Of a stretch of DNA of 44,970 bases, positions 37,428 through 40,306 are shown one piece after another. The stretch lies in assembly GCA_009377795.1 (NCBI GenBank), contig WHTJ01000031.1, positions 1 through 44,970 of the forward strand, written 5' to 3'. The stretch comes from Propionibacteriales bacterium (GTDB lineage Bacteria; Actinomycetota; Actinomycetes; Propionibacteriales; Nocardioidaceae). Position 1 is the stretch's first letter, and each line of letters starts with the position of its first letter. A program made the position numbers and the translations under genes. The notes under the pieces were generated by a model. It searched no databases. It was not told where the DNA came from and saw only the letters and a program-made list of their open reading frames with translations.

Positions 37428-38353
37428 GCGCGTCAGCCGAGCAGGTCGAGGCCGCCTTCCACGACAGCAAGCTGGCCCAGGTCGTCTACCACGACTGGGA
37501 AGCCGAGACGTACGACGAGAAGTGGTCGATCTCGTTCGACCAGCGCTGCATCGATTATGCCCGCGAGCGGTTCTCCGCGGTGGCCGGAACGTCCGGCTGG
37601 CCGTACGCCAAGTCGCTGGAAATCGGTTGTGGCACAGGGTTTTTCACGCTCAACCTCATGCTGGCCGGCGTACTCGATGAGGCCCACGTCACCGACATCT
37701 CCGCGGGCATGGTCGAAGCGGCCGAACGCAACGCCGCCCGGTTGGGACTCGGCATCTCGGGCGAGCCGGCCGATGTCGAACGGCTGCCGTACGACGACGA
37801 CACCTTCGATCTCGTCGTCGGACACGCCGTGATCCACCACATCCCGGACGTCGAGCTGGCGTTCCGCGAGATGCTGCGCGTGCTGAAGCCCGGCGGGCGG
37901 GTGGTGATCTGCGGCGAGCCGACGCGGTACGGGGACTGGGTGGCCAGGCGGCTGTCCCGGGCGACCTGGGAGGTGGCCACCCGGGTCACCAGGCTTCCCG
38001 GCCTGCGCGCGCACTGGGCGCGGTCGCGGCAGGAGCTCGACGAGTCGTCCCGGGCGGCCGCGCTCGAGGCGGTCGTCGACCTGCACACCTTCGATCCGGA
38101 CACGCTCGCGCGCATGGTGGTCCGTGCCGGGGGAGCGGAGGTCCGGACCGCGACCGCCGAGCTGACCGCGGCGTGGTGGGGTTGGCCGGTACGGACGTGG
38201 GAGGCGGCCGTGCCCGCCGAACGGCTCGGTCCGCGCTGGCGCAACTTCGCGTACCGGTCGTGGCTGGCGCTGGGCATGGTCGACCGGGCGCTGGATCGCG
38301 TCGTACCCGACGAGCTCTTCTACAGCGTCTCGGTCACGGCCGTGAAGCCCTGA
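37424..38353 (+). CDS. SAM-dependent class I methyltransferase
   Basis: The 309-aa protein has motif I LEIGCGTGFFTL, followed by EAHVTDISAGMVEAAERNA, a motif around RLPYDDDTFDLVVGHAVIHHIPDVELAFREMLRVLKPGGRVVICGEPTRYG, and a long C-terminal half without a clear family. The N-terminus (YHDWEAETYDEKWSISFDQRCIDYARERF) is typical of one actinobacterial group. It is translationally coupled to the enoyl-CoA hydratase gene, so its substrate may be an acyl or polyketide-like compound, but that is a guess. Confidence 0.85.
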   Translation: MSASAEQVEAAFHDSKLAQVVYHDWEAETYDEKWSISFDQRCIDYARERFSAVAGTSGWPYAKSLEIGCGTGFFTLNLMLAGVLDEAHVTDISAGMVEAAERNAARLGLGISGEPADVERLPYDDDTFDLVVGHAVIHHIPDVELAFREMLRVLKPGGRVVICGEPTRYGDWVARRLSRATWEVATRVTRLPGLRAHWARSRQELDESSRAAALEAVVDLHTFDPDTLARMVVRAGGAEVRTATAELTAAWWGWPVRTWEAAVPAERLGPRWRNFAYRSWLALGMVDRALDRVVPDELFYSVSVTAVKP

Positions 38354-38362
38354 TCCGGCGGG

Positions 38363-38401
38363 GATACGGGGCAACGGCGCGACGATGCGCGGTAACGGTC
38401 G
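38363..38401. repeat. Direct repeat flanking the AbiEi-like gene, left copy
   Basis: This 39-bp sequence contains GGCAACGGCGCGACG and matches 39424-39462 at 34 of 39 positions, in the same orientation. It follows the methyltransferase stop by 9 bp. Confidence 0.75.
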
Positions 38402-38436
38402 ACTTCACGCCCGATTTGTATAGATTCATCTGACCG

Positions 38437-39396
38437 TTAGCGGGTATCGATCCAGGGTCCTAGGCGAGCGCGCAGCCGCCGTACCAACAGAGCATGGCGA
38501 TGCAGGAGGTCGGCGTACGTCCACCGGACGACCCAGAAACCCTGCTCCTCGAGCCGCTCGGCTCGTACCTTCTCCCGCCAGAGCACGTCGCCGTGCTCGT
38601 CCTCTGGAGGGCCGCCGTCGCAGGCGTACTTCTGTCGGCCGTCCGCCTCCCCCACAAGCTGGGCCTCCGGCCACAGGAAGTCGACCCGGTCGCGTCCGAT
38701 CCACACCTGACACTCCGGTAGTGGTAGTCCCTCCTCGATGAACAGCGCGAACGACTCCGACTCCAGTGGAGACTCGCGGAGACCGCTCAGCTGGGCGATC
38801 GCTGTGCGTGCGCCGACAATCCCGGTCATCCGATCGCAGTCGGCCAGGCACGCGGTGAGCTGCTCGGAGGTCACGGCCTCGCTGCGGAGTGCATGGTCTC
38901 CGACGATCAGGGTGGTCGAGAGCGGGTGACGCCGGGCGACGTCCGTGATCGTGCGTGCGGTGGTCGTACAGCGCACACCGAACAGCTCGTCGCGATGAGC
39001 GGCCGGGACGCGTGCCACCTGGACCCTGAGTTCGGGATAGCGCCGTGGCGTGGCCGTGCCTGGTTGGGCAAGCAGCTCGATCGTCGGGGCGGCCGCGTGC
39101 GGCTGGGCGAGCCCGCGAAGCCGGGCGCCGCTGAGTCCGGTCACCCAGGTGGGTACGGCGATCCGGTTCTGTGCTGCGAAGGTGGCGAGGACGACGTCAC
39201 CTCGCGGTAGGTGGGCGATGCGCTCATATGTTCGCGAGCTGGTGTACGTCGCCTTACGCAGCCGGACGATCTGCCCGCCTCGGAGCAGCCGGCGGAGCCG
39301 CATCGGCGGGATTCCTGGGGCGTGGGCGTCCTCGGCGGTGAAGACGAGCTTGTTCGGGAGAGTCACCCGGCACATGGTCGTGCGGTCGGAGGTCAT
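38437..39396 (-). CDS. AbiEi-like/DUF559-type protein, solitary
   Basis: The 319-aa protein has an AbiEi-antitoxin-like N-terminus: PPMRLRRLLRGGQIVRLRKATYTSSRTYERIAHLPRGDVVLATFAAQNRIAVPTWVTGLSGARLRGL. The C-terminal half resembles DUF559 (Vsr-like PD-(D/E)XK) domains: ECQVWIGRDRVDFLWPEAQLVGEADGRQKYACDG...REKVRAERLEEQGFWVVRWTYADLL. This two-part form is common in actinobacteria, often without a partner toxin, and none is encoded beside it. The start is uncertain: ATG 39396 has GGAGG immediately before it, ATG 39375 is next, and a TTG at 39435 lies inside the flanking repeat. Role as antitoxin, nuclease or orphan regulator is unknown. Confidence 0.8.
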   Translation of the reverse strand: MTSDRTTMCRVTLPNKLVFTAEDAHAPGIPPMRLRRLLRGGQIVRLRKATYTSSRTYERIAHLPRGDVVLATFAAQNRIAVPTWVTGLSGARLRGLAQPHAAAPTIELLAQPGTATPRRYPELRVQVARVPAAHRDELFGVRCTTTARTITDVARRHPLSTTLIVGDHALRSEAVTSEQLTACLADCDRMTGIVGARTAIAQLSGLRESPLESESFALFIEEGLPLPECQVWIGRDRVDFLWPEAQLVGEADGRQKYACDGGPPEDEHGDVLWREKVRAERLEEQGFWVVRWTYADLLHRHALLVRRLRARLGPWIDTR

Positions 39397-39423
39397 CCTC
39401 CGCCGTCGTCCACGGGGCCGCTC

Positions 39424-39462
39424 GATACGCGGCAACGGCGCGACGTTGCGCGGCCACGGCCG
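39424..39462. repeat. Direct repeat flanking the AbiEi-like gene, right copy
   Basis: It matches the copy at 38363-38401 (34/39), in the same orientation, 1,061 bp away. Inside, CGGCAACG and CGTTGCG make a short imperfect dyad. Together the pair brackets exactly one gene. Confidence 0.75.
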
Positions 39463-39547
39463 GATCTGTGCCCGGTATGCCCGGGCCCGAATGACGGTTA
39501 ACGTGTAACGACGCTCCGTCGCCGGAGCCTCGCCGGGGCCGATCCAT

Positions 39548-39553
39548 TAGAGT
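39548..39553 (+). promoter_or_regulatory. -10 box (TAGAGT) for leaderless acyltransferase gene
   Basis: TAGAGT ends 6 nt before ATG 39560. The only ribosome-site-like bases are AGG touching the ATG. It supports ATG 39560 as start over the in-frame ATG 39593. Confidence 0.45.
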
Positions 39554-39559
39554 CCCAGG

Positions 39560-40306
39560 ATGCGAGATCGCCGTGAGGCTCGGGTGCCCACGATGGCCAG
39601 CCTGAGGTGGGTGGTCCGGCATCGCGCGTGGACGCCGTACCACCTGATGCGGTACTGGCGGTTCCTCCTGCTGAAGATCCGGCATCCGGGCGTCGTCACC
39701 GAGGGATTCGTGTCCCTCGACCGCGACGTCGAGATCTTCGCGCGGCGAGGGTACGGACGGATCATCCTCGGCCGGTGGGTGCATCTCGGCACCGGCACCA
39801 GCCTGCGCGCACACGAGGGCACCCTGCGGATCGGCGACAAGGTCGTGATGGGCAGGCACAACACGGTCAACTGCCATCTGGACATCGAGATCGGGGAGGC
39901 GGCCCTGTTCTCCGACGCGATCTACGTCTGCGACTTCGACCACGTGACCGCGGAGCTCGACGTGCCGATCAAGGATCAGGGCATCGTCAAGTCCCCGGTC
40001 AGAATCGGCCCGGACTGCTGGGTCGGTACCAAGGCGACGGTGCTGCGCGGTGCGTTCGTGGGCCGCGGGTCGGTGCTTGCGGCGCACACCGTGGTGCGCG
40101 GCGAGGTGCCGGCGTACTCGATCGTCGCGGGTGTGCCGGGGCGGGTGGTGAAGAATCGGCGGGACGAGTACGCCGAGGCGGCCACGGAACGCGCCGAGCT
40201 GAAGCAGATCGCCGACGAAACGGCCGAGGCGGCGGCCGGCCGGTTTCCCAAGCGCCGTACGAAAAAACCCGCAGGCCGGGTCGGGGGTCAGCGCCGGTCG
40301 TCGTGA
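39560..40306 (+). CDS. Left-handed beta-helix acyltransferase (hexapeptide repeat)
   Basis: The 248-aa protein has a basic N-terminus (LRWVVRHRAWTPYHLMRYWRFLLLKIRHPGV) and a hexapeptide-repeat beta helix (EIFARRGYGRIILGRWVHLGTGTSLRAHEGTLRIGDKVVMGRHNTVNCHLDIEIGEAALFSDAIYVCDFDHVTAEL...VRIGPDCWVGTKATVLRGAFVGRGSVLAAHTVVRGEVPAYSIVAGVPGRVVKNR), the latter typical of WbbJ/NodL-type O-acyltransferases. A charged C-terminal extension (about 205-248) follows. Its end overlaps the convergent GT4 gene by 19 bp. It may acylate a sugar or polysaccharide, perhaps the product of its glycosyltransferase neighbour. Confidence 0.88.
   Translation: MRDRREARVPTMASLRWVVRHRAWTPYHLMRYWRFLLLKIRHPGVVTEGFVSLDRDVEIFARRGYGRIILGRWVHLGTGTSLRAHEGTLRIGDKVVMGRHNTVNCHLDIEIGEAALFSDAIYVCDFDHVTAELDVPIKDQGIVKSPVRIGPDCWVGTKATVLRGAFVGRGSVLAAHTVVRGEVPAYSIVAGVPGRVVKNRRDEYAEAATERAELKQIADETAEAAAGRFPKRRTKKPAGRVGGQRRSS

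Follow-up and report, generated by a model that had tools for sequence, protein, structure and literature searches.

The DNA analysed here (hereafter the window) is a 44,970-nucleotide stretch of the genome of a Propionibacteriales bacterium, whose host group we take to be the high-GC actinobacteria. Its reverse strand carries a solitary gene (38437..39396) that encodes an AbiEi/nuclease fusion protein of 319 amino acids when read from the ATG at 39396. The open reading frame opens with a TTG at 39435, and the likely start is the ATG at either 39396 or 39375. To the left lies a SAM methyltransferase gene (37445..38353, forward strand) and to the right a hexapeptide acetyltransferase gene (39560..40306, forward strand), both assigned by Pfam. 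A preliminary description of this DNA reported direct repeats, identical at 34 of 39 positions, on both sides of the gene, and these were confirmed by their coordinates, 38363-38401 and 39424-39462, where both stand in direct order. The two 300-bp flanks of the gene match each other by blastn at E 3e-10, a comparison in which none of 254 control genes reaches 1e-5.

The match between the two repeats extends to 56 nt at 77% identity, and the 39 bp taken in that description as the repeat proved to be the best-conserved part of a larger unit of about 94 bp that is present on both sides of the gene. The left element, L (38360..38453, reverse strand), adjoins the 3' end of the gene, contains the first 39-bp repeat and overlaps the stop codon; the right element, R (39421..39514, reverse strand), adjoins the 5' end and contains the second. 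They match a covariance model at E 2e-18 and 5e-18, respectively, the model having been built from 12 copies of the repeat that include both L and R. A simple gene caller written for this analysis predicted no other gene between the two repeats, the GC content of the locus is similar to that of the rest of the window, and an Rfam search of 38200-39700 gave no match up to E 1. The preliminary description had proposed a search for gene and repeat as a unit elsewhere in the genome; a sequence search revealed no other close copy of the element there. The window copy may be inactive, given its diverged repeats and the lack of a close second copy, though its putative nuclease residues are intact.

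A dispersed repeat in the genome of the window

Further copies of the repeat were first seen in this genome by blastn with the left repeat as query. An exact pattern of the repeat gave one match on each of seven unrelated contigs. With the covariance model, 15 distinct sites were found at E<=1e-9, two of them at the gene; this number is a lower bound, since 150 of 6468 first-look candidates were scored and weaker copies may have been missed. Three of the 15 sites were not among the 12 model copies, of which the contig 40 row had been entered in an orientation that later scored lower. The repeats do flank the gene as first described, but they are not confined to it.

All 15 copies are intergenic or extend no more than 28 nt into the end of a gene, as judged with the simple gene caller. 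Thirteen lie within 77 nt of the 3' end of a gene, and the remaining two, R and a copy on contig 33, occupy divergent gaps. The adjoining genes come from families with no relation to one another, among them TPP enzyme, ilvD, ClpB-type ATPase, cytochrome b, EPSP synthase-like and hydantoinase. The copies are mildly clustered: two pairs lie less than 2 kb apart (simulated P 0.003) and three less than 6.5 kb (P 0.003), in simulations that ignored contig breaks. Compared along the full unit, about 100 columns, L and R have an identity of 62%; L is closer to copies on two other contigs, 35 and 56 (67% with each), while a copy on contig 9 is closer to R (72%); the two elements at the gene are therefore not fresh duplicates of one another. 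Among 99 other genomes of the same family, searched with stricter filters, six had one weak match each (best E 4.7e-4).

By eye, the unit of about 94 bp contains three copies of one motif of about 16 bp (consensus near CGTTACACGCCAACGG), one of them forward and the other two reversed. Covariation in the stem that repeat arms 1 and 2 could form was not above that of shuffled alignments, a result more in keeping with duplex binding sites than with a selected hairpin.

Three further loci of this genome were recorded. A second pair of repeats, inverted with respect to each other (contig 9, 10978-11072 and 12914-13007; L118), brackets a gene matching ilvD. A decayed AbiEi/nuclease relative with one in-frame TAG lies on contig 118 at about 54900-55751 (L024); the inverted repeat on its two sides is a different one, matching over 59 bp at 81% identity (E 6e-13). 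Finally, genes that by eye resemble ammonia/hydrocarbon monooxygenase subunits stand beside one copy of the repeat (L023, 7196-12446).

Matching flanking repeats across the gene family

The bracketing of the gene by matching repeats is a property of the family as a whole. For each of 63 distinct family genes, the 300 bp on the 5' side were compared with the 300 bp on the 3' side at a threshold of E<=1e-5, with L031 and L035 included and with L164 (identical to L032), L165 (our own locus), L195, L197, L202 and L206 dropped as duplicates. Matching repeats were present on both sides of 53 of the 63 genes, and 49 pass 1e-8. The positives are spread over all three samples: 15/19 for the window and 18 relatives of its order, 25/28 for a sample of the class and 13/16 for further paralogs. 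The same test detected no matching flanks around any of 254 neighbouring genes, taken from the window and from 20-kb stretches around the homologs, nor around any of 29 acetyltransferase genes. Ten genes lack detectable flanking repeats (L137, L136, L030, L033, L169, L177, L187, L199, L207 and L210), and three of the 53 positives are weak, with matches of 24-32 bp (L025, L189 and L168).

The matched stretch ranges from 24 to 193 bp with a median of 75. The best flank match is inverted in 32 of the 53 genes and direct in 21, so that no single simple type describes the ends of these elements. Taken on its own, the 5' flank is palindromic in 43/53 positives, as against 9/29 control genes. In L198 (genome G681) the flanks of the family gene bear a direct repeat of 233 bp at 85% identity, with internal repeated motifs, far longer than usual.

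The repeats vary by lineage, even among paralogs within one genome. When flanks from different genes of the class sample were deliberately mismatched, 78 of 812 pairs matched, which we attribute to common repeats or host flanks of close relatives; sharing was therefore binned by protein identity and tested on the repeats alone. Among the 53 positives, a repeat is common to 31 of the 86 protein pairs whose DNA-binding halves are at least 50% identical, and to none of the 1292 pairs below that value. Identity of the nuclease half predicts repeat sharing equally well; the test thus does not single out the recognising domain, and shared descent alone could explain part of the link.

Family genes are common in the class. 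At E<=1e-30 they were detected in 244 of 394 sampled genomes and in 103 of 138 genera; copy numbers from this survey are lower bounds, as five first-look candidates were scored per genome.

Domain structure of the encoded protein

The N-terminus of the window protein is antitoxin-like, as had been proposed: residues 18-51 (39244..39345, reverse strand) match the AbiEi_4 winged helix (Pfam PF13338, E 2e-6, above its cutoff), and the PADLOC AbiEi model matches the same end at E 3e-12. The proposed relation of the C-terminus to DUF559 fared less well at the level of sequence (Pfam, E 0.009, below cutoff), but its nuclease character is borne out by the predicted fold, which is clearly that of the Vsr/EDxHD nucleases. 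An AlphaFold2 model built from 19 sequences has a mean pLDDT of 84.4. Foldseek ranks Streptococcus agalactiae AbiEi first (E 8e-6), followed by Mycobacterium tuberculosis Rv2827c (E 2e-4), and places the catalytic domain of I-Bth0305I fifth (E 0.008; TM 0.76 on the target). In VIA alignments, residues 70-204 (38785..39189, reverse strand) superimpose on AbiEi 6y8q as its second domain (Z 12.3, rmsd 3.1), and residues 209-317 superimpose on I-Bth0305I (3r3p) over 97/97 residues (Z 12.3, rmsd 2.5); the match to DNA-bound Vsr (1cw0) has a Z of 11.0.

Columns invariant in all 19 aligned homologs include E208, E212, D239, E250, D252, K256 and R278. Four of these (D239, E250, D252 and K256) define a putative catalytic segment, residues 239-256 (38629..38682, reverse strand), which falls inside the domain that matches I-Bth0305I and Vsr. 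This segment would be expected to be catalytic. Pfam at E<=0.1 returned AbiEi_4, the weak DUF559 match and a chance-level TEBP_OB2-like match, with no transposase and no Y1 family; NCBIfam returned no family, and hence no transposase. A search of PDB sequences with the family profile gave no match up to E 0.1.

The locus in related genomes

The genes for an enoyl-CoA hydratase, the methyltransferase and the acetyltransferase are syntenic in relatives, the acetyltransferase being found in 34 of 98 genomes, the window's own included. Among 29 loci of relatives, both flanking genes were readable in 28. In 20 of these 28 the methyltransferase and acetyltransferase genes abut (gap of -28 to +30 bp), with neither gene nor repeat between them, and the window protein has no match in any of the 28 loci at E 1e-8. 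Among the genomes examined, a sample with one genome of the window's genus, the lineage of the window is thus the only one with the gene and the two repeats at this place. Sites lacking gene and repeats together were seen; a site with one repeat and no gene, which the preliminary description had suggested looking for, was not seen at this position. That description had also set against a mobile cassette the finding of repeats at many unrelated gaps combined with a lack of empty sites; repeats do occupy many unrelated gaps, and empty sites are nonetheless present.

Seven of the 28 relatives hold about 510-760 bp in the gap between the two genes, and one holds a different open reading frame. The gene in those seven (L040, L042-L044, L046, L050 and L051, of another family) is presumably cold-shock-like, as recognised by eye; the gap evidently accepts unrelated insertions.

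Dispersal of cognate repeats in other carriers

In the four lineages searched, the cognate repeat is dispersed in genomes that carry the element and is scarce or absent in most of the relatives searched, and solo copies are the rule. Genome G074 has 32 repeat sites (counted by hand from 63 rows of matches), two of which flank the gene; its congeners G084, G086 and G092 have no match to this repeat, and the family genes present in two of them, G084 and G086, are accompanied by different repeats. Genome G077 has the element and ten dispersed places (counted by hand from 44 rows), its repeat occurring at one place in G064 and not at all in G082 or G094. The three counted genomes thus hold 10-30 dispersed sites. 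In the genus of G494, the matches listed give at least 55 rows for G494, 83 for G477, 44 for G638, 37 for G509 and 14 for G572, and between 4 and 8 rows for the other seven genomes; these rows count both strands and flanks, and the comparison between genomes is a rough one. Two of these seven, G554 and G615, carry an element at the same site as G494, and in them the repeats have diverged and match rows are few.

Fifteen repeat-only loci, of 1.4-1.6 kb each, were retrieved, and 14 contain no family gene at E<=1e-3, the exception being L251 with a weak match (E 2e-4). Six of the 15 are inverted doublets. By a crude open-reading-frame test, none of 14 repeat-only copies in G494 lies inside a long frame, and at least seven lie within 28 nt of the 3' end of a gene.

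The edges of the element were approached at the site it occupies in G494 (L173), where the flanks in four congeners (G563, G581, G599 and G654) are 85-89% identical. Similarity stops at 1267-1273 and at 2529 of L173, the terminal repeats of the element matching each other at 1271-1360 and 2449-2537; in all four congeners it ends within about 16 bp of the terminal palindromes. By eye, similarity ends on the left at the stop codon of the neighbouring gene and on the right where the reading frame of the other gene closes. Limits that are also the ends of coding sequences agree with exchange bounded by the repeats and do not prove the edges. In place of the element the four congeners hold 445-516 bp of other sequence, so that there is neither a clean empty site nor a clean junction, and no target duplication was seen at this site. 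The substituted sequences (L244-L247) are similar among at least some of the four.

In the f23 sample, 8 of the 13 aligned elements, from different species, apparently lie in the same convergent gap as the element of G494 (by eye; L167 on one side only). Six are in one orientation and two in the other. The loci are L166, L167, L170, L173, L174, L178, L182 and L184.

Discussion

We observe a gene family in which each element consists of a single gene, encoding a two-domain AbiEi protein joined to a Vsr/EDxHD-type endonuclease, between cognate and mostly palindromic repeats. This architecture is family-wide; the repeats are dispersed in the genomes of carriers, they are tied to the lineage of the protein, and relatives have the site of the window element without gene or repeats. 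We consider it likely that 38360-39514 is a member of a widespread family of small selfish mobile elements, in which the nuclease would cut and repair would copy either the element or the repeats alone. The small mobile cassette of the preliminary description is thereby supported, on the evidence of the family and not of the 39 bp alone.

The closest parallel is the REPtron, the RAYT (TnpA-REP) transposase gene with its REP palindromes. There too a single gene lies between two palindromes, further copies of which, solitary or paired as inverted doublets, are scattered through the carrier genome, and high copy number is tied to the cognate gene, repeat and enzyme going together (PMC2817692, PMC8266576). 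Two of the features of REPtrons are found here: the gene is delimited by two repeats, with palindromic 5' flanks in most cases, and the repeats are over-represented in the carrier genome (that of the window, G074, G077 and five genomes of the G494 genus). The enzyme, however, is unrelated, with an AbiEi plus Vsr/EDxHD fold and no HUH/Y1 match, so that the element is not a member of the REPtrons and seems instead to work alike. REPs are given as 20-40 bp long (PMC3733652), against the median of 75 bp for the matched repeats described here. RAYTs have been dated to after the branching of the gammaproteobacteria, with no homologs reported in other major lineages (PMC2817692).

Several other accounts of the locus were weighed. 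The gene could encode a stand-alone, autoregulated DNA-binding protein for which the repeats are operators and the dispersed copies a regulon, the nuclease having decayed or being used otherwise. AbiEi and Rv2827c each bind their own promoter at inverted repeats (PMC7319586); the 5' repeat of the window sits where a promoter is expected, it holds the motif in three copies, and R and the contig 33 copy lie in divergent gaps, as promoters would. Yet a matching repeat is also present at the 3' end in 53 of the 63 genes, 13 of the 15 copies in the window's genome lie close behind genes, beside functionally unrelated neighbours, inverted doublets exist without the gene, and the putative nuclease residues are invariant, and we regard this account as unlikely; the regulatory role suggested in the preliminary description stands as a rival to that extent. 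A second account, a free-standing homing endonuclease that cuts one target and has its gene copied there by homologous repair, with the repeats as recognition sites and the solo copies as scars or protected sites, is a variant of the mobile-element reading and not a contradiction of it. It draws on the fold of the nuclease domain, closest to the homing endonuclease I-Bth0305I, whose family has targets of nearly 60 bp (PMC3943268), and on the convergent gap apparently shared by eight f23 elements. The two orientations in that gap are unlike plain homing, though inversion between the terminal repeats could give both, and with many dispersed repeat-only copies and elements in many different gaps, a homing gene of this plain kind seems to us distinctly improbable.

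That a solitary gene came by chance to stand between two copies of a dispersed repeat with which it has no connection was our early view, prompted by the 15 dispersed copies, by L and R being no closer to each other than to other copies, and by the second pair around the gene matching ilvD. It was dropped after the flank test on homologs and its controls: with the same bracket around 53 of 63 family genes and around none of the controls, and with the link between repeat and protein lineage, coincidence is very hard to sustain, the occurrence of the repeat in unrelated gaps notwithstanding. Scarcely credible, finally, is a solitary phage-defence nuclease gene lying between recombination-prone repeats. 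The names AbiEi and Vsr recall defence and DNA repair, and there is the PADLOC match, but three neighbouring genes (methyltransferase, acetyltransferase and glycosyltransferase) do not belong to toxin or defence families by Pfam, no phage homolog of the protein was found and the plasmid search gave one weak match, and defence leaves the cognate repeats unexplained. The stand-alone defence protein raised in the preliminary description therefore finds no support.

For the selfish mobile element that we favour, a mechanism can be proposed by analogy. The AbiEi part would bind motifs in the cognate repeat, as AbiEi and Rv2827c bind theirs, and the nuclease would then cut at the repeats or at a target, often the 3' end of a gene. 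Host repair or recombination would fill the break with a copy of the element or, in trans, of the repeats alone. Solo and doublet copies would then be passengers without autonomy, in the position that REPs and REPINs hold towards RAYT transposases. Homing enzymes of the EDxHD type, I-Bth0305I among them, appear to form dimers on their long target (PMC3943268), and a target of that length fits long repeats with several motifs.

We lean, with less assurance, toward a broader proposal: that these are an undescribed superfamily of prokaryotic mobile elements, common in the class, in which an AbiEi-Vsr/EDxHD fusion takes the place of a transposase and, with lineage-specific end repeats, drives miniature repeat-only copies, often at gene 3' ends, in convergence with REPtrons. 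The protein shares its first domain, by Pfam, and its second, by fold (6y8q, 1zel), with the AbiEi antitoxins of type IV toxin-antitoxin systems in S. agalactiae and M. tuberculosis (Rv2827c), but no AbiEii (DUF1814) toxin gene is adjacent, the methyltransferase and acetyltransferase genes being there instead, and it differs from AbiEi in its extra C-terminal nuclease domain and in the repeats on both sides of its gene. With I-Bth0305I and Vsr it shares the nuclease fold across the whole catalytic domain; here, in contrast, the nuclease is fused to AbiEi and bracketed by cognate repeats, and the window gene is intergenic and lies in no intron or intein. Insertion sequences with MITE derivatives likewise have terminal repeats, one gene and apparent non-autonomous derivatives, but no known transposase family was matched here, and no target-site duplication was seen at the G494 site. 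No family tested accounts for both enzyme and repeats; the logic of the system converges with that of REPtrons. The open-access literature, among the matches listed, yielded nothing that joins AbiEi or DUF559 with REP- or MITE-like repeats or with gene mobility, which does not prove absence from print.

In annotations, genes of this family presumably appear for the most part as antitoxins or as DUF559 proteins. Should they prove to be selfish elements, a large number of seemingly orphan antitoxins and nucleases would call for re-annotation, and an origin would be at hand for some of the palindromes that lie between actinobacterial genes. The family would also supply a range of nucleases that come naturally matched to long recognition sequences of their own, and the REP/RAYT way of life would have evolved a second time, independently.

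The apparent occurrence of f23 elements in a common gap in both orientations suggests either that this target is preferred or that the elements have inverted between their terminal repeats. The sequence TGATCA stands near the ends of many f23 repeats and could supply a stop codon in both directions at the 3' ends of genes.
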